Below, piece by piece: positions 2,881 through 19,056 of a stretch of DNA of 19,056 bases. A program made the position numbers and the translations under genes. Each line of letters starts with the position of its first letter. Position 1 is the first letter of the stretch. Source of the stretch: an archaeon (GTDB lineage Archaea; Nanobdellota; Nanobdellia; Pacearchaeales; GW2011-AR1); the NCBI GenBank assembly GCA_030638105.1, contig DAOWFF010000038.1:1-19056 (forward strand), given 5' to 3'. The notes beneath the pieces are model-generated. The model saw nothing but the letters and a program-made list of their open reading frames with translations, made no database searches and had not been told where the DNA came from.

Positions 2881-5800
2881 ATGGCAAAACCAGTAAGAAA
2901 AAAAATAAAAGAAATAAGATTTTCTTTGCTTAATCCTGAGGAAATCAAGAAACTTTCAGTTGCAAAAATTGTTACTCCGGAACTTTATGATATTGACGGG
3001 TATCCTGTTGACGGCGGGTTAATGGATTTGCGGTTGGGAGCAATAGACCCTGGTGTGAGATGTCGGACTTGTGGAGGGCGACTTAAAGAATGTCTTGGGC
3101 ATCCAGGAAGTATTGATCTGTCAAGACCTGTAATGCATGTAAAATATATTCCAATAGTTGAATTAACTTTAAGATGTTTTTGTCAAGAGTGCGGGAAGTT
3201 AATGCTTAATGATAAAAGTATTGAAAAATATTCTATGAGTGAGCGGGCAAAAAAAGCAAAGAACGCCAAAAAATGTCCTTGTTGCGGAAATGTTCATGAG
3301 AGAATTAAGCTGGACAAACCGACGAGTTTTTATCAAGGAAAGAAAAGATTGTTTCCGATAGAACTTAGGGAAATGCTTGTGAAAATTTCAAACGAGGAAC
3401 TGGAAAAAATCGGGATTGATGCAAAAACTTACAGGCCTGAATGGGCTATTTTAACGTCGCTGTTAGTTCCGCCTGTGACTGTAAGACCAAGTATTATTCT
3501 GGAATCAGGGGAAAGGAGCGAAGATGATTTGACTCATAAACTTTCAGACATTATCAGGGCAAATCAACGGCTTTGGGAAAACCTGAATGCTGGTGCTCCA
3601 GAAGTTATTATTGAGGACTTGTGGGATTTACTGCAGTTTCATATTACAACTTTTTTTGATAACACAATTACAAGAATACCCCCTGCAAGACACAGAAGTG
3701 GGCAACCTTTGAAAACAATTACAGAAAGAATCAAAGGAAAAGAAGGAAGAATCAGAAAAAATCTTGCTGGAAAAAGAGTGAATTATTCTGGGCGAACTGT
3801 GATTTCTCCAGACCCTTCTATTGAGATTAATGAAGTTGGGATTCCTCTTGAAATTGCAAAAGTGGTTACTGTTTCTGAGATAGCTACAGATATGAATCTT
3901 GAAAGATTAAAAAAATTAATTGAAAAAGGAGAAGAATATCCTGGAGCAAATTATATTATAAGGCCTGATGGAAAGAGGAAAAAAATTGCACCTGAACTTA
4001 AAGAAGAAATTATGAGCGAATTTGAGCAGGGCTATAAAATTGAAAGGCATTTACAAAATGGAGATGTTGTTTTGTTCAACAGACATCCAAGTTTGCACAA
4101 GGGAAGTTTAATGGCTCATTTTGTAAAAATTCTTCCAGGAAGAACATTTAGATTGCACCCTGCAGTGGCTGCTCCATATAACGCTGATTTTGACGGGGAT
4201 GAAATGAATATTCACTCTCCACAAACAGAAGAAGCAAGAGCAGAAGCAAAAATACTTCTTGATGTAAAACAAAATTTAATCTCGCCCAAAAACAGCACTA
4301 ATCTTATTGGGTGTATTGGCGATGCTATTACTGGAAATTATTTATTTGGTTTAAATGAGTTTACAAAAGATTATGCAAATCAAATTCTTTATCAGTCGGG
4401 CGTTGATTATAAAGTTTCAAAAAAAACAATTTCAGGAACAGAATTATTTTCACAGATACTTCCGAAAATTAATTTTTCAAATGATTCTATTACAATTAAA
4501 GACGGAAAAATTGTAAAGGGAGTTATAGATAAAACTGGTTTTGGCGACGGAGACGGCGAGTTAATTAAAAAATTAGACGGAACAATCGGGCGACTTGAAA
4601 CATTTGAAACAATAAAACAAGCATTTAATCTCGGGAAAAATTATCTTACTGACAGGGGAATAACAATTTCTGTTGAGGATTTGGATTTAGATGAAAAAAT
4701 AACAAAGATTGGAGAAGAAATAATGCAAGATGCCGAGAAAAAAACCAATGAAATAATTGAGTCCTATAATCAGGGAGGTCTTGAAGCTATTCCTGGGAAA
4801 ACCGAAGAAGAAACAAGAGAAATAAAAATACTTAAGGTCCTGAATGAAGTGAGAACAAAAATTAGTGAAATTGTGAAAAGGGAATTTCCAGAGGATAATC
4901 CTGTAACTCACATGATTAAGTCAGGTGGTGGGGGAAATATTTTGAATATTACGCAGATGGCTTGTTGTGTTGGTCAGCAGGATTTAGAAGGAAAGAGAAT
5001 TGACATTGGATACACTAAAAGAACTTTGTCGTTTTTTAAGAAGGGCGACTTGTCCCCAAAATCAAAAGGATTTATTTCTAATCCGTTTATTAAAGGACTG
5101 AGACCAGATGAATTTTTCTTTGGTGCTATAACTGGAAGGTCAACGCTTATGGATACTGCATTAAGAACTCCGAAGTCAGGTTATTTATACAGGCGACTGG
5201 CGAGTGCTCTTCAGGATTTGCGAGCTGAATACGACGGAACAATCAGAGACAGCGACAATAATATTATTCAATTTAAATATGGCGACGACGGAATTGATGT
5301 TTCAAAAATTCATACTAACGGGAAACTAAATCCTGGAGAAGCAATCGGGATTATTACTGCTCAGTCATTTGGAGAGCCGTCAACTCAGATGGTTTTGAGA
5401 ACTTTTCATTTTGCTGGTGTTACTGAAATGCAGATTACTCAGGGATTGCCGAGGTTAATTGAAATTTTTGATGCGAGAAAAACGCCTTCATCCCCGAAGA
5501 TGGAAATTTATTTGAACAAGCAATTTAATAATGAAAAAGATGCGAAAGTTCTTGCTGAAAAAATTAAGGAAGTTACAATAAAAGAAATTTCGTCTGAAAT
5601 TAATCTGGACTTTAGTAATAAAAAAATTGAAATAAAAATTGACAGAAACGGGCTAAAGCAAACCCACACTTCTGTAAAAAAAGTCGTTGAGAAACTTAAT
5701 GATTTGAAGTTTAATGTTAAAGAAAAAGAAGGGAATATTATTTTGGATGCGTCGGAATTTGGTTTTAAAGAGATATACAAGTTAAAAGAAAAACTGAAAA

Positions 5801-6369
5801 GCACAATAATTTCTGGAGTCAAGGGAGTAAAACAAATTTTAATTGTTAAGAGGGGTTCTGATTTTGTGATTATAACTCTTGGAACAAATTTGAAAACGAT
5901 AATTGAATTAAAAGAAATTAACAAGGACAAATTAATTTCAAATGATTTTTATGAGGTTGCAGATGTTTTGGGAATTGAAACAGCAAGAAAATTAATAATT
6001 AAAGAAATTGAAGAGGTTCTTAATGCTCAGGGATTGAATATTGATATAAGGCATCTTAAACTAATTGCCGACGCTATGACTAACACGGGGAAAATTAAAG
6101 GAGTTACAAGAATGGGAATTATTGCACAGAAATCATCTATACTTGCGAGGGCGACTTTTGAAACACCAGTGAAACAATTTGTAAATGCGTCAATAAAAGG
6201 AAGCAAGGACAAGTTATCAAGTGTTATCGAGAACATCATACTTAATCAACCAGTTCCAATTGGGACAGGACTTCCCGGGCTTCTTGTAAAAGTTATTGGA
6301 CCTTTGGAGAAAAAAGAAGAAGAGAAAAAAACAGCAAAGAAAAAAGTTGTAGAGAAAACTGGGAAGTAA
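2881..6369 (+). CDS. rpoA: DNA-directed RNA polymerase subunit A, fused A'/A'' (Rpo1)
   Basis: Largest RNA polymerase subunit, 1162 residues, carrying the catalytic NADFDGD motif at residues 434-440; Asp436, Asp438 and Asp440 should bind the active-site magnesium. The N-terminal zinc site (CRTCGG, CLGHPG) and a second cysteine group (CQECG, CPCCG) are present. The bridge-helix region reads GRSTLMDTALRTPKSGYLYR and the trigger loop GEPSTQMVLRTFHFAGV. Both lie in one frame with no stop, so A' and A'' are a single protein; most archaea split them at this point. The C-terminal A'' signature (ADAMTNTGKIKGVTRMGI, FETPVKQF, PVPIGTG) is intact. The protein ends in a Lys/Glu-rich tail whose last 43 nt of coding sequence recur at 7443-7485. 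The start ATG follows the rpoB stop after one base. Confidence 0.97.
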   Translation: MAKPVRKKIKEIRFSLLNPEEIKKLSVAKIVTPELYDIDGYPVDGGLMDLRLGAIDPGVRCRTCGGRLKECLGHPGSIDLSRPVMHVKYIPIVELTLRCFCQECGKLMLNDKSIEKYSMSERAKKAKNAKKCPCCGNVHERIKLDKPTSFYQGKKRLFPIELREMLVKISNEELEKIGIDAKTYRPEWAILTSLLVPPVTVRPSIILESGERSEDDLTHKLSDIIRANQRLWENLNAGAPEVIIEDLWDLLQFHITTFFDNTITRIPPARHRSGQPLKTITERIKGKEGRIRKNLAGKRVNYSGRTVISPDPSIEINEVGIPLEIAKVVTVSEIATDMNLERLKKLIEKGEEYPGANYIIRPDGKRKKIAPELKEEIMSEFEQGYKIERHLQNGDVVLFNRHPSLHKGSLMAHFVKILPGRTFRLHPAVAAPYNADFDGDEMNIHSPQTEEARAEAKILLDVKQNLISPKNSTNLIGCIGDAITGNYLFGLNEFTKDYANQILYQSGVDYKVSKKTISGTELFSQILPKINFSNDSITIKDGKIVKGVIDKTGFGDGDGELIKKLDGTIGRLETFETIKQAFNLGKNYLTDRGITISVEDLDLDEKITKIGEEIMQDAEKKTNEIIESYNQGGLEAIPGKTEEETREIKILKVLNEVRTKISEIVKREFPEDNPVTHMIKSGGGGNILNITQMACCVGQQDLEGKRIDIGYTKRTLSFFKKGDLSPKSKGFISNPFIKGLRPDEFFFGAITGRSTLMDTALRTPKSGYLYRRLASALQDLRAEYDGTIRDSDNNIIQFKYGDDGIDVSKIHTNGKLNPGEAIGIITAQSFGEPSTQMVLRTFHFAGVTEMQITQGLPRLIEIFDARKTPSSPKMEIYLNKQFNNEKDAKVLAEKIKEVTIKEISSEINLDFSNKKIEIKIDRNGLKQTHTSVKKVVEKLNDLKFNVKEKEGNIILDASEFGFKEIYKLKEKLKSTIISGVKGVKQILIVKRGSDFVIITLGTNLKTIIELKEINKDKLISNDFYEVADVLGIETARKLIIKEIEEVLNAQGLNIDIRHLKLIADAMTNTGKIKGVTRMGIIAQKSSILARATFETPVKQFVNASIKGSKDKLSSVIENIILNQPVPIGTGLPGLLVKVIGPLEKKEEEKKTAKKKVVEKTGK
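6327..6369 (+). repeat. 3' end of rpoA, copy 1 of a 43-nt perfect direct repeat
   Basis: The last 43 nt of rpoA, including its TAA, are identical to 7443-7485. The spacing between copies is 1116 nt and the HEPN/MNT pair lies between them. This copy ends a complete gene, so it is the functional one. It is followed directly by GTTTAAAA. Confidence 0.95.
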
Positions 6370-6371
6370 GT

Positions 6372-6863
6372 TTAAAATAACAGCTCTATGAAAGATTTTC
6401 TAATCAAATCTATTTTATCTTTATTTAACTCATCTATTATAACTCTTAACTTTAGTAAAAAATCTTCTGCTTTTGTAATTATTTCATTGCAAGATTCTTT
6501 TGTTGCTTTAATAATTTGTTTTGTTTCTACATAATATTGTTTATCTATTCTTTCCTCTTTTGCCAATAAAACTATTTTTGTTAATTCCTTATTATTAAAT
6601 AATTTATCAAATAAAATAATTGATGCAGAATGATTTTCAGATTTGATTCCTACTTTGAATAATAAAGCGAGTAAGGAATTATAAATACAATAATATGCTT
6701 CTGACGTTGAATTTTCATAAAGTTGGTTCTGGAAAAGTATATTAGAAGATTTGAAACAATTTTCTGCTTTTATCAAATAAGAGGATTTCATTTCTTCAGA
6801 AGGTTCAACAATTTCTAATCTACCTGTTCTTTTAAGTTTCCTTAAAAAAATTATTTTTTTCAT
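6372..6863 (-). CDS. HEPN domain protein of a HEPN/MNT pair
   Basis: A 163-residue helical protein. The stretch KAENCFKSSNILFQNQLYEN with a following EAYYCIYNSLLALLF segment and a conserved-type NHSA is typical of archaeal HEPN proteins that partner minimal nucleotidyltransferases. In characterised MNT/HEPN systems the HEPN protein is an RNase toxin with an RX4-6H motif and the MNT protein inactivates it by nucleotide transfer. Here the expected motif region reads ERIDKQYYV (Arg105, Tyr110, Tyr111) with no histidine, so nuclease activity is uncertain. The start overlaps the end of the MNT gene by 32 nt, indicating one transcript with MNT first. The gene ends three bases from the rpoA stop, in convergent orientation. 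Confidence 0.8.
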   Translation of the reverse strand: MKKIIFLRKLKRTGRLEIVEPSEEMKSSYLIKAENCFKSSNILFQNQLYENSTSEAYYCIYNSLLALLFKVGIKSENHSASIILFDKLFNNKELTKIVLLAKEERIDKQYYVETKQIIKATKESCNEIITKAEDFLLKLRVIIDELNKDKIDLIRKSFIELLF

Positions 6864-7389
6864 AATATTCTTCTACTCCTCTTATAATAACATGATTTTT
6901 GACAATCTCTTTTATCAAAAGGGAGTTTGTATCAAATTCTCCTATTTTTATGCTTAATTTGGAATTTAATTTTCTTAGTTTATTTTTTATTTTGTTATTT
7001 GTTGTTTCAAGAAAAATATCTATATCGCTATGAGGTTTTGAGTTCCCTTTTGCATAACTTCCGAATAATATTATTATTCCTTTTTGAAATCCCTTTTTTA
7101 TATCTTCAAAAATTATAGACAATTCTGGATGTTTTTTTAATAATTTGTTTAGTTTGTGGATTTCTGATGAATAAACATAATTTTTAGATTTGAGATTATT
7201 TTTTATAAAGAAGATTTTATTTTTTCCTTCTTGTTTATAGTCAATTACATTTTCTTTTACAAGTTCATTTATTTTTCTTGAAATAGTTGAATGAGATTCT
7301 CCAATAGAACGAGCAATTTCTCTTAGATGAGATTTATTTTTAATTAAGTTTAAAATAATTTCTAATTCTATGTTTTGATTTTGAACCAT
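6832..7389 (-). CDS. Winged-helix plus minimal nucleotidyltransferase (MNT) protein
   Basis: A 185-residue two-domain protein. Residues about 8-65 form a helix-turn-helix (HLREIARSIGESHSTISRKI) of the winged type. Residues about 104-165 form a nucleotidyltransferase fold with GSYAKGNSKPHSDIDIFL, in which Ser111, Asp122 and Asp124 match the GSX(10)DXD signature; a third carboxylate is probably Glu151 or Asp153. By analogy with known MNT/HEPN pairs it would modify and neutralise the downstream HEPN protein. The winged helix suggests autoregulation. A TATA-like element lies about 27 nt upstream of the ATG, so the message is probably leaderless, and an inverted repeat covers the start codon. Confidence 0.85.
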   Translation of the reverse strand: MVQNQNIELEIILNLIKNKSHLREIARSIGESHSTISRKINELVKENVIDYKQEGKNKIFFIKNNLKSKNYVYSSEIHKLNKLLKKHPELSIIFEDIKKGFQKGIIILFGSYAKGNSKPHSDIDIFLETTNNKIKNKLRKLNSKLSIKIGEFDTNSLLIKEIVKNHVIIRGVEEYYEKNNFFKET

Positions 7390-7420
7390 ATGTTTCAGAT
7401 ATGAACCAATGATATTTAAA
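7383..7420 (-). promoter_or_regulatory. Promoter and possible operator of the MNT/HEPN pair
   Basis: On the minus strand a TATA-like element (positions 7412-7420, reading TTTAAATAT) sits about 27 nt before the MNT start codon. Between them, CATAT (7387-7391) and ATATG (7399-7403) form an inverted repeat overlapping the start codon, and GAACCA occurs twice 20 bp apart (7383 and 7403). Spacing of two helical turns suits a winged-helix repressor such as the N-terminus of the MNT protein. The operator role is inference. Confidence 0.5.
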
Positions 7421-7442
7421 TGTTTCTATTGAAAGAGAGACG

Positions 7443-7485
7443 AAAAACAGCAAAGAAAAAAGTTGTAGAGAAAACTGGGAAGTAA
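7443..7485 (+). repeat. rpoA: 3' end of rpoA, copy 2 of the 43-nt direct repeat
   Basis: This 43-nt stretch is identical to the last 43 nt of rpoA and includes the stop codon. It has no upstream gene body, so it is a 13-codon remnant rather than a functional gene. Similarity continues imperfectly for about 15-20 nt upstream (purine-rich) and stops sharply after TAA, where CGAAGAG replaces GTTTAAAA. Confidence 0.95.
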
Positions 7486-7489
7486 CGAA

Positions 7490-7524
7490 GAGAAAAGTTA
7501 TTTAGGGGGAAGTAAAGTTTAAAA
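7490..7524 (+). repeat. Degenerate third copy of the rpoA 3' end and its flank
   Basis: After the second rpoA-tail copy the sequence GAGAAAA (7490-7496) and then GGGAAGTAA (7507-7515) recur, followed after one extra A by GTTTAAAA. The last 17 matched bases reproduce the stop codon plus immediate downstream flank of rpoA copy 1 (6361-6377) with one inserted base. The GTTTAAAA part also serves as the TATA element of the next gene, so selection on a promoter could explain part of the match. Confidence 0.5.
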
Positions 7525-7546
7525 AGTATTTTTTCTTTATTGAAAT

Positions 7547-7939
7547 ATGGAATTGAAAAATATTTTTAATAAAGGGTTTTGGATTGGTTTGTGTATTGGA
7601 GTTATCTCTTTCATTTTTATATTTAATCTCAAGTTTTTTGAAGGAAGGGGCATGTTATCCCTTAATTTGATTCTGCCAATCATAGGAGGGAGTCTTATTA
7701 TTGGTTTAGTTTTATTTGGAACTGGTTTATTAAATTGGAGTTCATCAGAAGCTTTTTTAACTATGGCAATCATAGGGCTTATTATTCCAATATTTTATGG
7801 AATGATAACTAATTTAATTTCTAATAAAATTCAAAGAAATTATTTAAAATGGTCTTTTATTATATTTTCAATAATATTATTTATAATAATAAATTATATT
7901 TCTGGAAGTACCTATATTGTACTTTTATCATTAAAATAA
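7547..7939 (+). CDS. Small membrane protein with four predicted helices, function unknown
   Basis: I do not recognise this 130-residue protein. It is strongly hydrophobic with four likely transmembrane segments at about residues 11-27, 40-60, 69-88 and 103-123, separated by short polar loops; Lys/Arg residues near the third loop suggest a cytoplasmic side there. No catalytic motif is visible. A TATA element (GTTTAAAAA, 7517-7525) lies about 26 nt before the ATG, indicating a leaderless message. It lies in the AT-rich accessory stretch between rpoA and nusA, where many archaea have the L30e gene. A role alongside the neighbouring toxin-antitoxin-like pairs is possible but unsupported. Confidence 0.75.
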   Translation: MELKNIFNKGFWIGLCIGVISFIFIFNLKFFEGRGMLSLNLILPIIGGSLIIGLVLFGTGLLNWSSSEAFLTMAIIGLIIPIFYGMITNLISNKIQRNYLKWSFIIFSIILFIIINYISGSTYIVLLSLK

Positions 7940-7975
7940 TTATCAAAAAATTTTATTACATCATCTATTTTATTT

Positions 7976-8317
7976 TTAATAACTCAACGCAGGACTTTGT
8001 TGTTTTATTTTAGGGATTATTATAACTCCTTCAGCATCTTCAGAATCAGTTATTATTTTTATTTTCATAGCAGTCATGTTTCTAAAGTTAGTTATGTCTG
8101 CTTTCATTTCCTTGATTTTTGTTAATTCTACAAATTTAGAAAGTAATTTAGACAAAACTTTTGAAGCTTCAAATATTTGTATTGCTACGACATTTTCTTT
8201 TTCATCAAAATCAAAAACAAAGTTTCCTATTTCCACAGCTCCTTTTGATTTAGCATTTCCTAAACAAATAAATAAATCATCATTATTTTTATCGTAGCTG
8301 AAATTAAAATTTTTCAT
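7976..8317 (-). CDS. DUF2283-family protein, probable antitoxin partner
   Basis: A 113-residue protein whose N-terminal half (NFSYDKNNDDLFICLGNAKS, then FVFDFDEKENVVAIQIFEAS) matches the DUF2283 pattern. Such proteins are repeatedly found next to DUF4258 proteins in archaea and bacteria and are thought to be antitoxins, though this is not well proven. I place the start at 8317 because that ATG overlaps the upstream stop as ATGA; an upstream in-frame ATG at 8344 would lengthen it by nine residues and overlap the partner by 31 nt. It is the second gene of the pair. Confidence 0.75.
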   Translation of the reverse strand: MKNFNFSYDKNNDDLFICLGNAKSKGAVEIGNFVFDFDEKENVVAIQIFEASKVLSKLLSKFVELTKIKEMKADITNFRNMTAMKIKIITDSEDAEGVIIIPKIKQQSPALSY

Positions 8318-8634
8318 CTGAATTTTTTGATTGTTTTTTGCCAATCTCTATTTATAATAATTATTGTTACTATAATAATCTTTCTGTTAATAACTAAAAT
8401 ATATTTATGACACAATTTTTCTGAGTAAGAAAAGTAACAAACATACTTTTCTTCATGGGGATTTACAGATTTTTGCCCCTCTGTATAAATTAATCTTTGT
8501 GGATTTAATACATTTTGTTTTACTTCACTTAATTCTACATTTCTAACTATTGCCTGCATTTTAGCATGGTCTGTTATGATAATATCTTTTTCGGAATAAT
8601 TTTTTAATTTTTCTTTTAATTCTTTTAAATCCAT
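8314..8634 (-). CDS. DUF4258-family protein, probable RelE-like toxin
   Basis: A 106-residue protein with DUF4258 features: an ITDHAKMQAIVRNVELSEVK segment near residue 20 (His23, Arg32) and a C-terminal beta-rich part with VCYFSYSEKLCHKYILVINR. DUF4258 is considered a relative of the RelE/ParE toxin fold, and pairs with DUF2283 are widespread. The gene is first in a two-gene minus-strand unit and its stop overlaps the DUF2283 start by 4 nt. It is divergent from nusA across a 70-bp gap that holds both promoters. Toxicity is inferred from family and context. Confidence 0.75.
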   Translation of the reverse strand: MDLKELKEKLKNYSEKDIIITDHAKMQAIVRNVELSEVKQNVLNPQRLIYTEGQKSVNPHEEKYVCYFSYSEKLCHKYILVINRKIIIVTIIIINRDWQKTIKKFR

Positions 8635-8674
8635 TTTATTTTTAAGGATTTTCTGTTTTTAATTTTAGGTAAAG

Positions 8675-8684
8675 TTTTATAAAA
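8675..8684 (+). promoter_or_regulatory. TATA box of nusA
   Basis: TTTTATAAAA is centred about 25 nt before the nusA ATG, so transcription should begin at or next to the start codon (leaderless). The preceding GGTAAAG could serve as the BRE. The segment GTAAAGTTTTATAAAA resembles the flank of the rpoA-tail copies (GTAAAGTTTAAAA at 7512). Confidence 0.7.
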
Positions 8685-8704
8685 CACTTCATCTAAAAAT
8701 TTAA

Positions 8705-9139
8705 ATGACAAAAGTTATTAATATGCAGGACTTGCGGTATCTGAATTTGTTTGAAAAAATAACAAGGATAAGCACGCGATTTTGTTTTAAGTATAATGAG
8801 GCGATAATATTTTGTGTTCCGAAAAGATTGGTTTCAAAAGGAGTTGGGGCTGGTGGCGAGAATATAAAACATCTTAGCAGAATTCTCAGGAGAAAAATAA
8901 AAATTATTCCAATCCCGCAGGGGATTCAGCACGCCAAGATTTTTATTTCGGCAATTGTCCGTCCTGTTACTTTTAAGGATTTAGAAATTACTGAAGATAC
9001 CATAAAGGGCACAAGTGAAATAATTCTTAATGCTGGAAGCCAAAACAAGGCGGCGTTGATTGGACGAAACAAAAGACGGTTTTTAGAAATGCAACAAATT
9101 GTCAGGGATTTTTTTGGAAAAGAATTTCGGATTGTTTGA
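8705..9139 (+). CDS. nusA: Archaeal NusA-type transcription factor (two KH domains)
   Basis: A 144-residue protein consisting only of the two KH RNA-binding domains, as in other archaeal NusA proteins; the N-terminal polymerase-binding and S1 domains of bacterial NusA are absent. KH1 carries VGAGGENIKHLSRILRRKI (about residues 47-65) and KH2 carries AALIGRNKRRFLEMQQIV (about 117-134). It probably binds RNA during elongation or termination. Location between rpoA and rpsL is the standard archaeal order (rpoA'', L30e, nusA, rpsL, rpsG), here with L30e missing and accessory genes in its place. It has its own leaderless promoter. Confidence 0.92.
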   Translation: MTKVINMQDLRYLNLFEKITRISTRFCFKYNEAIIFCVPKRLVSKGVGAGGENIKHLSRILRRKIKIIPIPQGIQHAKIFISAIVRPVTFKDLEITEDTIKGTSEIILNAGSQNKAALIGRNKRRFLEMQQIVRDFFGKEFRIV

Positions 9140-9206
9140 AGGAAATTTTAAATATATGAGATTTATGACAAGTAATTTTTTAAAGGTTTAAGATTTCTTT
9201 AGGTTT

Positions 9207-9503
9207 ATGGGAGTTCAAGAAGAAATAGAAAATTTGAGAGAAAGGTACCAAACAAGAATTAAACCTCTTATTGATAATGAAGAATATTTGAGAGCATCTT
9301 TTGAGTTAGGTAATTTTGTTATTGTTCTAGGTGAAAAAATAAAAGAAATATATTCTCAAGTTCATATGGGTAAGAGTTTTTTTGCTTCTGCACAAATGTT
9401 GGAAGAAGAATTGAGAAAAGGAAATAAAAAAGATATTGAATATTCTGTAAGAAGGTTTGAAGCTTATTCAACTCAAACCACATTACCTCTAAAGCGTCAG
9501 TAA
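9207..9503 (+). CDS. Small helical protein of unknown function
   Basis: I do not recognise this 98-residue protein. It is charged, almost entirely helical in composition and heptad-like in places (QEEIENLRERYQTRIKPLID, MLEEELRKGNKKDIEYSVRR), with no cysteines and no membrane segment. It starts with ATG at 9207, preceded by an AT-rich stretch with TTTAAAGGTTTAAG about 20 nt upstream that could act as a promoter. It separates nusA from rpsL, which are usually adjacent, so it looks like an insertion in the conserved cluster; no duplicated gene tail was found here. Codon pattern looks coding throughout. Confidence 0.65.
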   Translation: MGVQEEIENLRERYQTRIKPLIDNEEYLRASFELGNFVIVLGEKIKEIYSQVHMGKSFFASAQMLEEELRKGNKKDIEYSVRRFEAYSTQTTLPLKRQ

Positions 9504-9520
9504 ATCCTCTTGAACACAAC

Positions 9521-9528
9521 TTTTAAAA
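9521..9528 (+). promoter_or_regulatory. TATA box of the rpsL-rpsG operon
   Basis: TTTTAAAA is centred about 26 nt before the rpsL ATG, which fits leaderless transcription. No Shine-Dalgarno sequence precedes the start. Confidence 0.65.
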
Positions 9529-9550
9529 ACTAATTCTATCAACAATTATA

Positions 9551-9973
9551 ATGGGTTTAAAATCAGCAAAGAAATCAGTGAATAAAAGAAAAAAGTTTAG
9601 ATGGAAAGACAGGAAATATAAAGTGAAAACTCTGAATCTTTATGCTAAGTCAGACCCGCTTGAGGGGGCGAATCAAGCAAAGGGAATTGTTTTGCAGAAG
9701 GTTCAGAAAGAAGCAAAGCAGCCAAATTCTGCAATGAGAAAATGTTGCAAGGTTCAACTTAAAAAAAACGGGAAGCAGGTTACTGCATTTATTCCGGGGA
9801 ACCTCGCGCAAAAATTTATTGACGAGCACGACGAAATTATGATTGAAAGAATCGGCGGAAAACAGGGAAGAAGTAAAGGCGACATTCCTGGAGTTCGGTT
9901 CAAAGTTATCAAAGTAAATGATCAGCCATTACATAGATTGGTGAGTGGCAAGATAGAGAAGGGAAGGAGATAA
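9551..9973 (+). CDS. rpsL: Small-subunit ribosomal protein uS12
   Basis: A 140-residue uS12, the decoding-centre protein of the 30S subunit. The archaeal/eukaryotic form is clear: the [15 protein letters not shown] segment (residues 56-70) and the [10 protein letters not shown] loop (110-119) that approach the A-site codon are both intact. Length is normal for archaea. The stop codon is followed by a single A and then the ATG of a small inserted gene, instead of rpsG directly. The N-terminus MGLKSAKK matches the expected start and a TATA box at 25 nt supports it. Confidence 0.97.
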
Positions 9974-9974
9974 A

Positions 9975-10208
9975 ATGGATTATCCATTGATGTCTCTTGG
10001 GGCAATAGCGGTTGTAGGTGGAGCAATAGATATTTATCTTGGAAGAAGAAATAGAAAAGTAATGCGAGATTTTTATAATAGAACTGGTAGGGATTTAATT
10101 TCCAGAACAAAAGAAGTGACTAAAAGATTTGATGAAGAGATTTCAAGAATATTAAGAAACCCAAAATTAAAAAGCAAATTTGAAACAATATTGGGAGAAA
10201 CAAATTAA
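9975..10208 (+). CDS. Small membrane-anchored protein between rpsL and rpsG, function unknown
   Basis: A 77-residue protein I do not recognise. Residues about 4-22 (PLMSLGAIAVVGGAIDIYLG) form one likely transmembrane anchor, followed by a basic patch (GRRNRKVMRDFYNR) and a charged helical tail, so the bulk should lie in the cytoplasm. It fits exactly between rpsL and rpsG with TAA-A-ATG at both junctions, so it is probably translated with the ribosomal proteins. rpsL and rpsG are normally adjacent, so this is an insertion in the operon. The regular operon spacing argues for a real gene. Confidence 0.65.
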   Translation: MDYPLMSLGAIAVVGGAIDIYLGRRNRKVMRDFYNRTGRDLISRTKEVTKRFDEEISRILRNPKLKSKFETILGETN

Positions 10209-10209
10209 A

Positions 10210-10824
10210 ATGACAGAACAAACACAACTTCCGAAATTTAAAATATTTGATTTGTATGATATCAGTGAAATAAAAGTTGAAGACCCTGGCTTGAAGCAAG
10301 TTATAAATCTTGAGCCGAAATTAATTTTGAAAACGCACGGAAGAAATGTTCAAAGATTTGGACAGACAAAAGTGAATGTTGTTGAGCGACTGATGAATAA
10401 GTTAAGTGTTGCCGGGCACCGAGGGAAAAAGCACAAATTTGAGATAGGGCATACAACTGGAAAATATTCAAAGAATATGAAAATAGTTTTGGATGCTTTT
10501 AAGTTAATAGAGCAAAGGACTAAAAAAAATCCAGTTGAGGTTTTTGTTAAGGCGATTGAGAATTCGGCACCTCGGGACGAGATTACTGTTATTGAGTATG
10601 GGGGAGCAAGATATCCTCAGGCAGTTGATGTTTCGCCGTTGAGAAGAATTAGTTTGGTTTTAAGATGGATTTGTCATGGAGCGTCAGACAAGGCATTTAA
10701 TAAAAAGAAAACTATTGTTCAGGGATTAGCAGACGAAATTGTTTTGGCATTTGAAAAAAACGGCGAGAGTTTTGCAATGAGGAAAAAAAACGAGGCAGAA
10801 AAACAGGCAGATAGTGCACGATAA
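10210..10824 (+). CDS. rpsG: Small-subunit ribosomal protein uS7
   Basis: A 204-residue uS7, which organises the 3' major domain of 16S rRNA near the E site. Diagnostic stretches are VERLMNKLSVAGHRGKKHKF, NPVEVFVKAIENSAPRDEI, GGARYPQAVDVSPLRRI and the C-terminal ADSAR, matching the conserved SAR/SNR terminus of archaeal and eukaryotic proteins. I start it at the ATG at 10210, one base after the preceding stop, rather than the in-frame TTG at 10180 inside the previous gene. The last 16 nt of the gene recur at the end of the radical SAM gene downstream. EF-2, often next in this cluster, is not here. Confidence 0.96.
   Translation: MTEQTQLPKFKIFDLYDISEIKVEDPGLKQVINLEPKLILKTHGRNVQRFGQTKVNVVERLMNKLSVAGHRGKKHKFEIGHTTGKYSKNMKIVLDAFKLIEQRTKKNPVEVFVKAIENSAPRDEITVIEYGGARYPQAVDVSPLRRISLVLRWICHGASDKAFNKKKTIVQGLADEIVLAFEKNGESFAMRKKNEAEKQADSAR
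10809..10824 (+). repeat. 3' end of rpsG, copy 1 of a 16-nt direct repeat
   Basis: AGATAGTGCACGATAA, the last codons and stop of rpsG, is identical to 12642-12657. The core ATnGTGCACnAT is nearly palindromic. Weak similarity (GAAAAA run) extends about 12 nt upstream. Confidence 0.85.
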
Positions 10825-10899
10825 TTCTGATTTTTATTTAAACCAAAAAGTTTTTCAACTTCTAAACCTTCTTGGATTTACAATGGATAGAAATATAAA

Positions 10900-12657
10900 A
10901 TGGAAAAACAATTAAAAGTAGTTTTAGTAAGATCTCCTCAGCCGTATTTGATCACAGAAAAAGGCGAGTTGTTTTCACCAAATCGATTATTAGCCCCAGA
11001 ACCAACTCTCCCATTACTCCAAGGTATTCTTCAAAATGCAGGTGCAGAAAATGGATTAAAGATAAAAATTACTCAATTGGACTTAAGGGATTCTAAAAAT
11101 GGGAAGATTGTCCATAATCATTATGGAGATGTGGAAATTCCTTATATAAAAAATAAATTAAAAAAAATTTGTAGCGGTGTTCTTATAGAAGATTGTATGG
11201 ATTTAATTGAAGAAGCAGATATAATTGGTTTTACTAATAATTTTACTATGAGCAGGAATGTTGTTAGAACAAATATCAAAAAAGTTAGAGATAAATTTCC
11301 CGATAAAGAAATTTGGTTGGGTGGGAGAGATGTTTTTCCAGAAAAAATTGCAGAACTTTATGCTGAATCAACTGATAAGAAAAATCTTGTGATTTTTGAT
11401 GGACATGTATTCAGTTCTTTACCAGAGTACATCAAATATAAAGTAAGTAAATCTGGAGATTTACATGGAATTACAATCTTTGATTCAAATGGAAAGAAAA
11501 CAAAGTATGATACTATTCCTTTAACTAAACTTATAAGTAAAGAAGGATTATCTGTACCGCTTCCAATATTCCCAGACCCTAATGTGTTGGACAGATTCAA
11601 TTATTCTGGAGAAGGACCAATAGAAGAAGGTCATGGGAGATTTGCCCACATGACTATTGGAATAGGTTGTCCACATAAATGTGGTTATTGTACAACTGGT
11701 TGGAGAGAAAGATATTTAGTAGAGAGAAGTATTGATTCAGTAAAAGACGAATTAGATCTCTATAAATCTTTAGGAGTGAAAACTCTCGCCATAATGGATG
11801 ATAATTTATTAAGCTTAGGAGCAGACAAAGTAAACGAAATCATGGATTTAATAAATTCGTATGGATTTAATATAGAGTATGGAAATGGACTTGAACTTGG
11901 GTTATTGCATAAAAATTGGGAGGAAATACACGAATCTGTTCTGAAAAATTGCACCGTGCTTTATGCACCTCTTGAAGATTTAACTCAAGATGTGTCATAT
12001 CGTAAATTAGAATCAATAAGTGAGCAACTTAAATTAATGAAATTAATTGTGGACTATTTTGATGGAAAAGCAAAGCACGGAATAAGATATATTACTATGG
12101 GGGTCATTCTCGGAGTTCCCGGACACACATACAACGGACTATATGAAAACCTCCCTAAAAATGCTGAAAATTTTTTAGAATTATTTGTCGGGAAAAATAT
12201 TGGAGTCGCAATCACTGCTTTTAACTATATGCCTTTAGCAGGAACATCATTTGGAGACCAAGCAATAGGAAGTGAAAGAATGGTAACAGATGTTGTTAGA
12301 GAACATCCAGAGGTCGTTAATTTTGAACTCACAACATATGCTCCAGAAGGTTTGACTCACAACGAAGTATTTGGTGCTTACAAAAAAGTTATTAATCTTA
12401 ATCCTGCAGGTAGGGTAAACCCAAAAGGGAAACTTTTAGGTATCAATTATGAAGATTTAAAAAAATTTGGTGAACGAGCATTACCTGAAAATCAAAGAGA
12501 TAAACTTCCATCTTACTGGAGAGAATTAGGTAAAGAATTTACTGGTGGAAGAGTTGCTGGAGCAGGTTTACATTATAAAGCTCTGATGACTCCAGAAATT
12601 GCAGAAGAGAATAGGATAAATCTTTCAAAGAAAAAATGCATAGATAGTGCACGATAA
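10900..12657 (+). CDS. Radical SAM protein with cobalamin-binding-type N-terminal domain
   Basis: A 585-residue enzyme. The core radical SAM motif is GCPHKCGYC, with Cys257, Cys261 and Cys264 (CX3CX2C) to hold the 4Fe-4S cluster that cleaves S-adenosylmethionine. Residues about 5-190 resemble a B12-binding Rossmann domain (KVVLVRSPQP start, LAPEPTLPLLQGILQNAG, ADIIGFTNNF, KEIWLGGRDVF), the architecture of cobalamin-dependent radical SAM methylases and related enzymes; the His of a classical DXHXXG motif is not evident. The substrate is unknown and the C-terminal 150 residues match nothing I recognise. No partner biosynthetic gene lies nearby. The last residues IDSAR are encoded by a copy of the rpsG 3' end, so the native C-terminus may have been different. 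Confidence 0.85.
   Translation: MEKQLKVVLVRSPQPYLITEKGELFSPNRLLAPEPTLPLLQGILQNAGAENGLKIKITQLDLRDSKNGKIVHNHYGDVEIPYIKNKLKKICSGVLIEDCMDLIEEADIIGFTNNFTMSRNVVRTNIKKVRDKFPDKEIWLGGRDVFPEKIAELYAESTDKKNLVIFDGHVFSSLPEYIKYKVSKSGDLHGITIFDSNGKKTKYDTIPLTKLISKEGLSVPLPIFPDPNVLDRFNYSGEGPIEEGHGRFAHMTIGIGCPHKCGYCTTGWRERYLVERSIDSVKDELDLYKSLGVKTLAIMDDNLLSLGADKVNEIMDLINSYGFNIEYGNGLELGLLHKNWEEIHESVLKNCTVLYAPLEDLTQDVSYRKLESISEQLKLMKLIVDYFDGKAKHGIRYITMGVILGVPGHTYNGLYENLPKNAENFLELFVGKNIGVAITAFNYMPLAGTSFGDQAIGSERMVTDVVREHPEVVNFELTTYAPEGLTHNEVFGAYKKVINLNPAGRVNPKGKLLGINYEDLKKFGERALPENQRDKLPSYWRELGKEFTGGRVAGAGLHYKALMTPEIAEENRINLSKKKCIDSAR
12642..12657 (+). repeat. Copy 2 of the rpsG 3' end, forming the end of the radical SAM gene
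   Basis: Identical over 16 nt to 10809-10824 and in the same reading frame, giving DSAR and the TAA stop. The sequence after TAA differs, and the TATA element of the RelB-like gene begins two bases further on. Confidence 0.85.
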
Positions 12658-12687: not shown

Positions 12688-12864
12688 ATGGAAACCATAA
12701 ATGTTAACAAACAAGCAATAGTTGATTTAGTAAGATTAAAAGAAGAGTTCGAATTGATAGTTGAATCATTAGAAATCATGAGTAATCCTGAAGTCATGGA
12801 ATCTTTAGAAAAATCTGAAGAGCAAATTAAAAATAGAGAATTTGCAAATTTTAATGAATTATAA
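12688..12864 (+). CDS. Small RelB-like antitoxin candidate
   Basis: A 58-residue acidic helical protein beginning METINVNKQAIVDLVRLKEE and ending NFNEL. Size, acidity and position directly before a RelE-type toxin fit a RelB-type antitoxin: the N-terminal part would bind DNA or dimerise and the C-terminal helix, with SLEKSEEQIKNREFANF, would wrap the toxin; similar SxEDIxxGR-like tails are common in such antitoxins. The stop overlaps the toxin start by 11 nt, which couples translation. It has a TATA box at the leaderless distance. The assignment rests mainly on context. Confidence 0.7.
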   Translation: METINVNKQAIVDLVRLKEEFELIVESLEIMSNPEVMESLEKSEEQIKNREFANFNEL

Positions 12865-13102
12865 AATTCTTCCAACAAAAGAGTTTGAAAAAGATTTTAA
12901 AAAACTTGATTCTGAATTTCAATCAAGAATAAAAAATAAAATTAAAAAAGTTGCTGAAAATCCAGAAAGATACAAACATCTTCGACTTGATTTAAAGAAA
13001 TTTTGCAGATTAAGAATAGGTAATTTAAGAATTATTTTTCGTTATGATTCTGAAAAACAAGAACTTTATTTAGAAAAAATTGTTTTTGGGCATAAGTACT
13101 AA
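12854..13102 (+). CDS. RelE/ParE-superfamily toxin
   Basis: An 82-residue RelE-type protein: MNYKILPTKEFEKDFKKLD at the start, a central basic segment, RLRIGNLRIIFRYD for the beta sheet, and a C-terminal FGHKY resembling the conserved end of archaeal RelE/YoeB-like toxins, where basic residues and a terminal Tyr contribute to ribosome-dependent mRNA cleavage. I choose the ATG at 12854, which lies inside the last codons of the antitoxin gene; an in-frame TTG at 12842 is possible but unnecessary. It ends 40 nt before the convergent scpA gene. Confidence 0.85.
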   Translation: MNYKILPTKEFEKDFKKLDSEFQSRIKNKIKKVAENPERYKHLRLDLKKFCRLRIGNLRIIFRYDSEKQELYLEKIVFGHKY

Positions 13103-16833: not shown

Positions 16834-17525
16834 AAACTGATAATGAAAACAAAGTAATAATTTTTGACGCAAGCACTTTGATAAGTTTTGCAATGAATGG
16901 ATTGTTTGAAGAATTTAAAAATTTGAAAAAAATTTTTAAAGGGAAATTTATAATAACAAAAGATGTTAAAAGAGAAATTATTGACAAGCCGATTACTATA
17001 AAAAGGTTTAAACTTGAAGCACTTAAACTTAAGCAACTTGTTGACGAAAAAATTCTTGAGATGCCTGATTCTTTGGGGGTAACTGATAAAGAAATTTCAG
17101 ATAAATGTAATGAAATTTTGAGTATTGCAAACAACACATTTTCTGGAAGAGGAGAGAATATTAAAATAGTGAGTGTCGGAGAAATTTCCTGTTTAGGATT
17201 AAGCAAAATTTTAAATGAAAAAGGTGTGAGAAATGTCGTCGCTGTTGATGAAAGAACAACCAGAATGTTAGGAGAAAAGCCAGAAAGTTTGGAAAAATTG
17301 CTGAGGAAAAAACTGCACACAAAAATAATTTCTAAAAAAGAAAATTTTAAATTTTTCAGAGGTTTTAATTTTGTCCGTTCATCTGAATTAATTTATATTG
17401 CATATAAGAAAAAACTTATTGAGTTAAAAAATGGAATGGTTTTGGATGCTTTGCTCTGGGCATTGAAATATAAAGGTTGTGCAATTTCAGGGGATGAGAT
17501 TGAAGAAATTAAAAAACTGAAATAA
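16830..17525 (+). CDS. Large PIN-domain protein
   Basis: A 231-residue protein with a PIN fold. Asp13 (VIIFDASTLISFAM), Glu49 (KDVKREIIDK), Glu118 (VSVGEISCLGLS) and Asp140 (VVAVDERTTRMLGEKPE) match the acidic cluster that binds metal in PIN nucleases. It is nearly twice the size of typical VapC toxins; the C-terminal 70 residues (FVRSSELIYIAYKKKLIELK onward) are an extra helical part. Coupling to the helix-turn-helix gene upstream suggests that protein binds and controls it. The substrate is probably RNA by family, but is not shown here. Confidence 0.8.
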   Translation: MKTDNENKVIIFDASTLISFAMNGLFEEFKNLKKIFKGKFIITKDVKREIIDKPITIKRFKLEALKLKQLVDEKILEMPDSLGVTDKEISDKCNEILSIANNTFSGRGENIKIVSVGEISCLGLSKILNEKGVRNVVAVDERTTRMLGEKPESLEKLLRKKLHTKIISKKENFKFFRGFNFVRSSELIYIAYKKKLIELKNGMVLDALLWALKYKGCAISGDEIEEIKKLK

Positions 17526-17540
17526 GAAAGAATTAAAAAT

Positions 17541-17550
17541 CATATATTTC
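17541..17550 (+). promoter_or_regulatory. TATA-like element of the tRNA-Trp gene
   Basis: CATATATTTC lies just over 10-20 nt upstream of the first tRNA base, an acceptable distance for a short 5' leader removed by RNase P. Confidence 0.4.
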
Positions 17551-17561
17551 TAATAATTTTA

Positions 17562-17632
17562 GGGTGCATAGTTCATTGTTAGAATATCGGTCTCCAGAAC
17601 CGAAGAGGAGGGTTAGATTCCCTCTGTGCCCA
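17562..17632 (+). tRNA. tRNA-Trp (anticodon CCA), intronless, with altered elbow pair
   Basis: A full cloverleaf folds by eye. The acceptor stem pairs 17562-17568 with 17625-17631 (two G-U pairs), the D stem GTTC pairs with GAAT, the anticodon stem TCGGT pairs with ACCGA around loop CTCCAGA, and the T stem GAGGG pairs with CCCTC. The discriminator is A (17632) and CCA is not encoded. The anticodon CCA is at 17594-17596. There is no intron, although many archaeal tRNA-Trp genes have one. The D loop is ATTGTTA and the T loop TTAGATT: G18 and T55 are kept, but position 19 is T and position 56 is A, in place of the near-universal G19-C56. Position 15 is T and 48 is G, also unlike the usual Levitt pair. 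T-rich sequence at 17634 probably ends transcription. Confidence 0.9.
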
Positions 17633-17650
17633 TATTTTTCCTACAAAACA

Positions 17651-17682
17651 TTTATAAACACATATGAACTAAAATTCATATG
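17651..17682 (+). promoter_or_regulatory. TATA box plus perfect palindromic operator of the ArsR-type regulator
   Basis: TTTATAAA (17651-17658) is about 25 nt before the ATG at 17680. Directly after it, CATATGAA (17661-17668) and TTCATATG (17675-17682) form a perfect 8-bp inverted repeat with a 6-nt spacer that ends inside the start codon. A dimeric winged-helix repressor bound here would block both RNA polymerase and the start site. Autoregulation by the downstream ArsR-type protein is the likely reading. Confidence 0.75.
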
Positions 17683-17991
17683 AAATCAAATTCAAATAAC
17701 ACCTACCATGTGTTTTTTACAAATCTTGCTAATCCTTTGAAAATAAATATTATCATAAATCTTAAGGAAAAAGAAAAAAATGTTACTGAACTTTCTAAAG
17801 AACTAAATGTTGAGCAGAGCAAAATTTCTCACGCATTGTCTTCTTTAAAATGTTGTAATATTGTTCAGGCAAAGCAAAAAGGAAAACAAAGAATTTATTT
17901 TCTGAATAAAAAAACAATTATTCCAATGTTAAAATTAATTGACAAACATGCTCAAAATTTTTGCAGAGGAAAATGTTTGGAGTGTAAATAA
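17680..17991 (+). CDS. ArsR-family regulator with C-terminal CX3CX2C motif
   Basis: A 103-residue winged-helix protein: FFTNLANPLKINIIINL is the first helix pair, VTELSKELNVEQSKISHALS the recognition helix-turn-helix, and KGKQRIYFLNK the wing, as in ArsR/SmtB regulators. It ends with CRGKCLEC, giving Cys95, Cys99 and Cys102, and also has Cys58 and Cys59 right after the recognition helix. These could bind a metal or an Fe-S cluster. It overlaps the cysteine desulfurase start (TAATG), so it is likely to control sulfur mobilisation or Fe-S assembly, a role filled by IscR or SufR in bacteria; that link is inference. Confidence 0.85.
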   Translation: MKSNSNNTYHVFFTNLANPLKINIIINLKEKEKNVTELSKELNVEQSKISHALSSLKCCNIVQAKQKGKQRIYFLNKKTIIPMLKLIDKHAQNFCRGKCLECK

Positions 17992-19056
17992 TGAAAAAAA
18001 TTTATTTTGATAATGCAGCGACGACAAAAGTTGATGAGAATGTCTTGAAAGCAATGATGCCTTATTTTTCTGAAAAATATGGAAACGCTTCTTCACAGCA
18101 TTTGATTGGAAACGAGGCGAAAAATGCTTTGGAAAAAAGCAGGAAGATAATTGCAAAATCAATCGGTGCAAGTAGCAGGGAAATTATTTTTACTTCTGGC
18201 GGAACTGAATCAAATAATTTTGCGTTGAAAGGTTTGTTTTTTGAAAATTATCCTGAAAAAAATCACATTGTTACGACGAGGATAGAACATGATTGTGTTT
18301 TGAACGCATGCAAATGGCTTGAAACACAAGGAGCAAAAGTTACTTATCTTAATGTTGATGACGAAGGTTTTGTTGATTTGAAAAATTTGAAAGATGCGAT
18401 TACAGATAAAACAATTATTGTGTCGGTTATTCACGGCAATAATGAAATTGGAACAATGCAGGATTTAGAATCAATCGGAAAAATATGCAAGGAAAAAAAT
18501 GTTTTGTTTCATACAGATGCGTGTCAGAGTTTTACAAAATTTCTGATGGATGTTAAAAAATTAAATCTTGATTTGGTAACTTTAAACTCGCACAAAATTC
18601 ACGGACCAAAAGGTGTTGGAGCTTTGTATCTTCGGGAAGGTGTTAAAATAAATCCTTTAATTCACGGCGGAGGGCATGAAAAAAATTTGAGAAGTGGGAC
18701 AGAAAACATTTCTGGAATTGTGGGATTTGCAAAAGCAGTTGAAGTTTCTAATTCACACCGCTCGGTGTACCCCAAATTGCGGAGTACGGGGGCAAAAGAT
18801 GCAGAAAAAATTACTGAATTAAGAGACAAATTAATCGCTGGAATTCTGCAAATTAAAAATGTAAAACTTAATGGTCCTGTTAAAAATCGGCTCTGCAATA
18901 ATGTTAATGTTTCTTTCAATGATGTTGAAGGAGAATCAGTCGGAGGGTATTTAGAAAGTTTCGGGATTTACACATCCACTGGCTCTGCATGTGCCTCGCA
19001 TTCTTTAGAACCGAGCCATGTTTTAAAAGCAATCGGGCTTTCATTGATTCAGTCAA
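17991..19056 (+). CDS. iscS: Cysteine desulfurase (IscS/NifS family), 3'-truncated by window edge
   Basis: A PLP enzyme that converts cysteine to alanine and passes the sulfur, as a persulfide, to Fe-S cluster or tRNA thiolation pathways. 355 codons are present and the frame runs off the window; the family is usually about 380-400 residues. YFDNAATT starts the protein. His100 (RIEHDCV), Asp176 and Gln179 (HTDACQS) and Lys202 (NSHKIHGPKG) are the PLP-site residues, and Cys334 in TGSACASHSLEPSHVL is the persulfide cysteine in a long class I loop. The start overlaps the regulator stop. Between the conserved KAVE and LRD segments about eight more residues than usual occur, encoded by a GC-rich palindromic stretch (18754-18793). 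Confidence 0.93.
   Translation, partial: MKKIYFDNAATTKVDENVLKAMMPYFSEKYGNASSQHLIGNEAKNALEKSRKIIAKSIGASSREIIFTSGGTESNNFALKGLFFENYPEKNHIVTTRIEHDCVLNACKWLETQGAKVTYLNVDDEGFVDLKNLKDAITDKTIIVSVIHGNNEIGTMQDLESIGKICKEKNVLFHTDACQSFTKFLMDVKKLNLDLVTLNSHKIHGPKGVGALYLREGVKINPLIHGGGHEKNLRSGTENISGIVGFAKAVEVSNSHRSVYPKLRSTGAKDAEKITELRDKLIAGILQIKNVKLNGPVKNRLCNNVNVSFNDVEGESVGGYLESFGIYTSTGSACASHSLEPSHVLKAIGLSLIQS
18754..18793 (+). repeat. GC-rich palindromic segment read in frame within the cysteine desulfurase gene
   Basis: ACACCGCTCGGTGT (18755-18768) is a perfect inverted repeat. It is followed by GTAC (18767-18770) and GTAC (18784-18787), which pair with inner CC/GG around an AAATTGC core, and by CCCC (18770-18773) opposite GGGG (18788-18792). 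The stretch is far more GC-rich than the gene around it and uses codons (CGC, TCG, CCC, CGG, ACG, GGG) that are scarce nearby. It encodes about 14 residues, SHRSVYPKLRSTGA. Confidence 0.7.

Follow-up and report, generated by a model that had tools for sequence, protein, structure and literature searches.

Why should the last codons of a vital archaeal gene reappear, stop codon included, on the far side of a module of unrelated genes? The question is raised by a contig of 19,056 nucleotides (nt), analysed here as a whole (the window; G000:C47) and belonging to the 75-contig, 441,662-base assembly of an archaeon of the order Pacearchaeales. Two genes in it, the fused large-subunit gene that we take to be rpoA and the gene for ribosomal protein S7, are each followed by accessory genes and then by a second copy of their own 3' end. 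An earlier interpretation of this DNA (the sequence-only reading) saw in the two modules a possible cassette family that targets the 3' ends of essential genes and duplicates the tail. As set out below, recurrent cassette insertion with displacement of the gene tail is well supported in this archaeal family. Throughout, G000 denotes the window's own genome, other G numbers denote family genomes and L numbers sampled loci.

Displaced tails at rpoA and S7

The rpoA gene (2881..6369, + strand; 1162 amino acids, matched in 53 of the 56 genomes searched) ends in a 43-nt sequence, 6327-6369, the last bases of which are its TAA stop codon, and the identical 43 nt stand again at 7443-7485 on the same strand, 1116 nt further on from start to start. 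A 38-nt part of this repeat occurs at these two sites only in the whole assembly, with up to 3 mismatches allowed. The first copy is the tail in use and the second the displaced one; between them, antisense to rpoA, lie the genes for a HEPN protein (6372..6863, − strand; PF05168, E 9e-10) and an HTH-MNT nucleotidyltransferase (6832..7389, − strand; PF18765 and PF01909; PADLOC PDC-M05A, E 9e-12). At the second site, S7 (10180..10824, + strand; PF00177, E 4e-36) ends in 16 nt that encode DSAR and the stop codon (10809-10824, + strand) and recur exactly at 12642-12657, where the repeat closes with the stop codon of a radical SAM gene (rSAM; 10900..12657, + strand; PF04055). In both modules, a direct repeat of att-like appearance overlaps the 3' end of the target gene, and the gene is restored.

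The two repeats, each on a stop codon, are present as the sequence-only reading had described them, and so are the differing cargo and orientation of the modules, HEPN/MNT being antisense to rpoA and rSAM in the sense direction. Its further statement that no recombinase is carried agrees with our Pfam scan of ten window proteins, all cargo included, which found no recombinase family. What it had overlooked is a possible third rpoA tail: the 9-mer GGGAAGTAA is found in the window, on both strands, at 6361, 7477 and 7507 only, and the last of these sites (7507-7515, + strand) lies 30 nt past the 9-mer of the second copy.

The cargo of both modules is foreign. At E<=1e-100 the rSAM gene is matched in 1 of 164 family genomes, its own, and a scan of GTDB genomes confirmed no relatives. 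The closest rSAM homologs stop at about ENRxNLxK or a few residues beyond and end without DSAR (19 C-termini of 48 homologs), whereas the window protein goes on with CIDSAR (12637..12657, + strand), which indicates that its reading frame runs into the displaced S7 tail.

Tail copies, recoding and hairpins in related genomes

The layout was found again in related genomes (named records: Pacearchaeota and Nanoarchaeota). A first scan of 675 genes for stop-anchored tail copies (score >=10) gave 12 downstream, 3 upstream of 643 genes and 1 antisense of 675. The combined scan covered 1,205,365 bases and 1,189 genes from stretches of related genomes that were not picked for a known tail copy; 20 of the stretches surround rpoA, and G017, G097 and G110 were sampled further once units had been seen there. 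It gave 14 copies downstream of 1,189 genes, compared with 2 upstream of 1,127 and 1 antisense of 1,189. At the nucleotide level (score >=18), a copy within 5 kb downstream was found for 13 of 1,189 tails and for 14 of 4,756 internal segments (Fisher p about 9e-4), so that the excess at 3' ends by which the sequence-only reading had proposed to judge its cassette family is there; with five repeat-rich loci left out (L038, L039, L072, L058 and L049), the counts were 9 of 1,104 and 6 of 4,416. In the same scan, 5 of 1,127 gene starts had an upstream copy. Tail copies are rare and concentrated at particular genes. Four of the 14 downstream hits do not resemble cassettes, being one tandem duplication, two families of repeats and one Gly-rich tail, and another three, at L062, L063 and L065, are weak. 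The arrays at L038 and L039 and the repeats at L072 were rejected as cassettes, as was the copy in G031, a 59-nt tandem duplication of a gene end (L049, − strand; 16876-18146, reverse strand). As a separate observation, a small gene between S12 and S7 in G030 (L042, 5517-5864, − strand) opens with 17 nt that repeat the start region of S7, so duplication may affect gene heads as well.

The clearest target gene is EF-2. Of 180 family genomes, 135 contain its tail pattern KGLxENQ*, and a second tail on the same strand follows after 34 to 2,820 nt in 10 of these (G000, G003, G017, G077, G094, G097, G101, G114, G142 and G174), three tails standing in succession in G000; the reversed control of the pattern occurs once each in 4 genomes. 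The second match in G089 and the third in G094 are on a different contig, where each closes a separate EF-2 frame, and the strict pattern missed copies in G014, G025, G030 and G121. Among 62 distinct EF-2 3' ends, some at loci chosen for their copies, 12 have a tail copy within 300 nt (at least 7 of 9 amino acids), compared with 0 of 62 antisense and 0 of 62 upstream. The unit differs between species of one genus: G003 has it and G110 lacks it, and the same holds for G114 against G027 and for G142 against G092 and G127. The flank past the displaced tail of G003 matches the flank past the single tail of G110 at 21 of 22 nt, and the score of the 40-nt alignment was reached in 0 of 5000 shuffles.

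Outside the window the tails are often recoded, over up to about 15 codons. In 23 cases, hand-picked before near-identical copies turned up and with the window's identical tails left out, the two tails share 52 of the 154 degenerate codons outside the identical core, where independent choice would give 72.7. This difference is best read as roughly independent codon choice, given that in most cases the 5'-most codon outside the core is bound by construction to differ; 4 codons are non-synonymous. The near-identical copies are those of G007 (48 nt compared, stop codon differing, with two copies of motif 2, described below), G108 (L365) and G028. Since the copies encode the same residues in different codons, the inserted DNA appears to bring a substitute tail, the old one being displaced. 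Moreover, both copies appear to have served as coding tails, because a fresh target duplication would not give synonymous recoding, and we have set aside a model of pure target duplication on this ground. The idea of a family of tail-duplicating cassettes is supported outside the window, with the amendment that the copy is often a recoded substitute (the 23 cases) rather than a duplicate.

In many units the displaced tail is immediately preceded by a short hairpin. Motif 1, CAAATC-N-AC-loop-GT-N-ATTTG-YAY, covaries: among the 22 distinct strings of all 25 hits, the free inner pair is Watson-Crick in 19 (GC in 10, CG in 6 and AT in 3, with AC in 2 and GT in 1 of the others), and 0 of 5000 shuffles reached 19. 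For motif 2 (GCTCGNNGACAYAGTCGCTTCGCATA), a search of 180 genomes that allowed up to 3 mismatches gave 32 copies, sometimes as tandem units, in 8 of them and none for the reversed control, and its pair 6-17 is CG in 22 copies, TA in 9 and TG in 1. Of its loci, 11 of 27 lie no more than 30 nt past a same-strand stop codon (3.9% of random positions) and 17 of 27 within 130 nt (15% of random positions). In GTDB genomes, motif 1 was found in 12 stretches, 10 of them in metagenome-assembled genomes (MAGs) titled Pacearchaeota, Nanoarchaeota or archaeon; the other 2, in Bacteroidetes-group MAGs, are at about chance level by our own estimate. IMG/VR gave no exact match to motif 1 or to part of motif 2, and a 53-nt probe had no match in phage records. 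No Rfam family (gathering threshold, 11 sources) matches the units themselves, the hits being confined to tRNA and, close to three units, to archaeal RNase P RNA.

The list of targets identified by Pfam and Rfam comprises SMC, gyrB, S28e and L30 (short copies of 3-4 codons with the stop), an S2-like gene, OapB, a YGR210-like GTPase, YbjQ and a MarR-like gene; a MopE-like gene is also hit; the assignment of the L060 gene as leucyl-tRNA synthetase was wrong, L060 being SMC. The 3' end of archaeal RNase P RNA is a target in three genomes of two genera (G059, G152 and G003; L338, L339 and L205), where units with copies of this tail stand immediately behind the RNase P RNA gene. Motif 1 also adjoins tRNA genes or tRNA-like sequence in either orientation (L217, L219, L208 and L210) and stands behind S9 without a convincing tail copy. 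The same ends are hit in more than one genus for YbjQ-like, S2-like, OapB-like and MarR-like genes, EF-2, S7 and RNase P, the tail being the only basis for some of these assignments. The term essential genes, as used in the sequence-only reading, is too narrow: RNase P RNA, the tRNA neighbourhoods and the MopE-like gene show that targets need be neither essential nor protein-coding. A second unit at L338 resembles the spacer of the EF-2 unit in G017.

Cargo and possible routes of movement

Most of the inserts read are gene-free and 30-160 nt long, within a range from tens of nt to 2.8 kb. In G101, genes for a Fic protein (PF02661; PADLOC SoFic, 4e-104) and a SIR2-like protein (PF13289; ThsA, 6e-22) lie between EF-2 tails 2,820 nt apart. 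In G028, a cassette of 1,151 nt carries antisense HEPN and HTH-MNT genes, with tail repeats in which a single mismatch parts 53 nt from 21 nt, and behind it come a motif unit and then a third short tail. The rpoA locus of the window shares this plan, its figures being 1,116 nt and 43 nt, and through G028 there is good support for counting the rpoA cassette as a member of the family; the S7/rSAM cassette probably belongs to the same family. In both the window cassette and that of G028, the HEPN and MNT genes are adjacent (Pfam, PADLOC), as in a HEPN/MNT toxin-antitoxin module. A weaker case is G030, where an antisense NYN-domain gene lies inside 704 nt and the tails read LVLWEGY and LVLWKGY. 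MNT matches (E<=1e-6) are present in 101 of 180 family genomes. The cargo is of the same class as the defence candidates described for DPANN archaea: SoFic and PDCs are enriched in DPANN and PDC-M05 in archaea, according to an excerpt of PMC12988326, and a DPANN HEPN-MNT fusion is typically found in a house-keeping context, according to an excerpt of PMC6393860; neither excerpt deals with the movement of such genes or with their exact insertion sites. Palindromic repeats (GAGAACCTTAACCTAAGGTT or parts of it, for example) stand on one or both sides of HEPN/MNT loci in G175, G156 and G155 (L372, L369 and L367), and in G155 the HEPN/MNT module lies behind S7, the S7 tail being QADGAR.

Our current working hypothesis is that a non-autonomous cassette would join at a short core within the last codons of a gene, its left end supplying a substitute tail with a stop codon, by which the target gene would stay functional, and its right end abutting the core, with the old tail left beyond. 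Repeated insertion would give two or three tails in an array. Many units have a hairpin immediately before the right-hand core, and we infer that a site-specific recombinase or transposase acting in trans may move the cassettes by reading this hairpin; the hairpin-less cassettes of the window may take this route as well or exploit a tail array that was already there. That both window modules are foreign cassettes inserted at the 3' ends of rpoA and S7, as instances of the wider phenomenon in the family, and that they moved in this way is the reading we favour, with somewhat better than even confidence. We hold only tentatively, and on balance doubt, the broader proposal of a new mobile gene-cassette system in DPANN archaea, which would use one folded hairpin site, take the 3' ends of vital protein genes, of RNase P RNA and possibly of tRNA genes as landing sites, bring with each cassette a rescue copy, often recoded, of the gene end that it displaces, and spread toxin-antitoxin and anti-virus genes by integron-like insertion and rescue through an enzyme not yet recognised.

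Several observations count against the favoured reading. In the window, the rpoA and S7 tail pairs are identical throughout and not recoded, neither motif 1 nor motif 2 is present at the two junctions, and the two right ends fold no better than shuffled DNA. These points speak against one mechanism shared by all cassettes, about which the sequence-only reading had been cautious for the two modules: the EF-2-type hairpin is missing at both junctions, and the tails are identical where many elsewhere are recoded. When hairpins of ten relatives were folded, 4 were clearly more stable than shuffles (z -2.2 to -4.0), 3 mildly so and 3 not. At 12 HEPN/MNT loci (the 10 closest homologs, the window and G028), flanking repeats of at least 16 nt were found at 5 (the window, G028, G175, G186 and G156) and at none of the other 7; those of the window and G028 alone are clearly gene tails, those of G175 and G156 do not resemble one, and that of G186 is ambiguous. 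No additional tail copy was found in 20 further contigs of the own genome, no match between the flanks of carriers and of single-tail genomes was evident by eye in four other genera (g26, g28, g91 and g71), and neither an excised cassette form nor an empty site of the same species was seen among family assemblies that are incomplete (listed completeness mostly 60-95%) and mostly fragmented. Lastly, none of the recombinase families searched (PF00589, PF01797 and PF01867) tracks the carriers. PF00589 is found in 30 of 32 genomes and is absent from the carriers G101 and G025; the Y1 transposase PF01797 is found in 15 of 32 and is absent from G000 and several other carriers, the MAGs being incomplete; and Cas1 (PF01867) is found in 3 of 32, a set that differs by two genomes from the other two, and is absent from G000, a MAG that is 75% complete. 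The cargo proteins scanned (window, G101, G028 and one G030 insert) gave no match to an integrase, and the 326-amino-acid open reading frame (ORF) of another G030 insert and an 81-amino-acid ORF had no match at all.

The main rival to site-specific joining in trans dispenses with a dedicated enzyme: homologous or homology-facilitated recombination with the DNA of a relative that has a cassette after the same conserved gene, in the gene body and in the conserved core, would bring in the donor tail and the cargo and leave the recipient tail in place. This would account for the absence of recombinase matches, for conserved genes as targets and for recoded first tails, and a single crossover or gene conversion in the tail would give the exact repeats of 43 nt at rpoA and of 53 and 21 nt in G028. 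It nevertheless leaves unexplained why similar covarying hairpins immediately precede the core at many unrelated genes, both in one genome and across genomes, and how identity blocks as short as about 5 nt (EF-2 of G025) could suffice, and we consider it unlikely. Local tandem duplication or slippage of gene ends, with no mobile DNA, holds for the 59-nt copy of G031, and some units are indeed tandem repeats (EF-2 in G017, RNase P in G152). As a general explanation it is very improbable, since cargo genes lie between the tails, including 1.1 and 1.8 kb of unrelated cargo in the window, rSAM occurs in one genome only, the spacers are non-homologous and synonymous divergence is strong.

Site-specific insertion at gene 3' ends has precedents in elements equipped with an integrase or Cas1 of their own. 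An excerpt of PMC6563490 reports that 14 of 68 integrated elements with defined sites in Thaumarchaeota used the 3' regions of protein genes and that EF-2 seems to be the commonest target of thaumarchaeal casposons. The elements in that excerpt resemble the units described here in their use of conserved-gene 3' ends, EF-2 among them, in their direct repeats, in tandem insertion at one target and, in one case, in element-derived sequence that restores the frame and the stop codon; unlike them, our units range from tens of nt to 2.8 kb, show no recombinase match in the scanned cargo and have recoded tails and, frequently, a hairpin before the core. The units might be remnants of larger tyrosine-integrase elements that lost the integrase and left att scars and a few cargo genes, as the attL/attR anatomy, the thaumarchaeal precedent and the wide occurrence of PF00589 (one protein in the own genome, a 390-amino-acid ORF on contig C74) would allow. 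We think this improbable, given that no scanned cargo protein matches an integrase, that most inserts read are of 30-160 nt with intact coding tails and that two carriers have no PF00589 match. Casposon-like, Cas1-mediated insertion with target-site duplication would fit the preference for EF-2 and the exact repeats at rpoA and S7, yet the tails often differ synonymously (all 23 tabulated cases are inexact) where a fresh duplication would be identical, repeat lengths vary widely, and Cas1 is scarce in these genomes; we attach hardly any probability to it.

Among other known systems, integron gene cassettes (attI/attC) have been reported in Archaea, including Nanoarchaeota, according to an excerpt of PMC9668308. 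The likeness lies in a small cassette with one folded 3' site, a recombinase in trans and arrays that grow beside a fixed site; the counterpart of the folded site would be the covarying hairpin seen in relatives and absent at the window junctions. The core of integrons has a GTTRRRY-type consensus, and no such core was noticed here; the fixed site, unlike that of integrons, is a gene 3' end, and our enzyme search covered the general PF00589 family. IS200/IS605 and REP/RAYT elements have a hairpin close to the cleavage end and need no target duplication, two properties that the units share, but the gene-specific tail at the left end sets the latter apart, and Y1 transposase was not found in 17 of 32 genomes, several carriers among them. 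Engineered home-and-rescue drives reportedly insert at an essential gene and keep it working with a recoded rescue tail; the recoded end at an essential gene is alike, no nuclease or guide was identified here, and the parallel is one of analogy only. Among the titles and abstract starts listed by searches of open-licence PMC papers, none describes such units.

Here the units are very small and have no visible recombinase, and they occur at many target genes in an archaeal family with reduced genomes, together with the substitute tail, covarying hairpins, tandem arrays and toxin-antitoxin or defence cargo. These results suggest that tail-copying cassettes are a so far unrecognised means of gene movement that spares the host. 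If so, DPANN archaea would have a route of gene gain under which vital genes keep functioning, the displaced tail with its hairpin and core would serve as a sequence signature for cassettes that annotation misses, and the hairpin-reading enzyme would become a concrete target.

Other features of the window

The gene order in the window is rpoB, fused rpoA, HEPN/MNT (antisense), a 130-amino-acid ORF, a DUF2283/DUF4258 pair (antisense), a NusA-like gene, a 98-amino-acid ORF, S12, a 77-amino-acid ORF, S7, rSAM, a small ORF and a ParE-like toxin gene, where the labels rpoB, NusA-like and S12, like rpoA, are those we presume. The rpoA gene is a single gene in the window and gives a two-piece match with a break near residue 535 in many relatives (G011, G012, G018 and G036, for example). 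The distance from rpoA to the NusA-like gene, as matched in relatives, ranges between about 10 and about 6,200 nt, which suggests that the operon gathers extra genes in several of them.

The antisense DUF2283/DUF4258 pair (7976-8634, − strand), which separates the rpoA cassette from the NusA-like gene, has the look of a further accessory module of two genes. Right behind rSAM, the small ORF and the ParE-like toxin gene (12690-13102, + strand) form the second toxin-antitoxin-like pair of the window. The gaps between the NusA-like gene and S12 and between S12 and S7 hold small ORFs with no Pfam match (9207-9503 and 9975-10208), and the lengths of these gaps vary among relatives.

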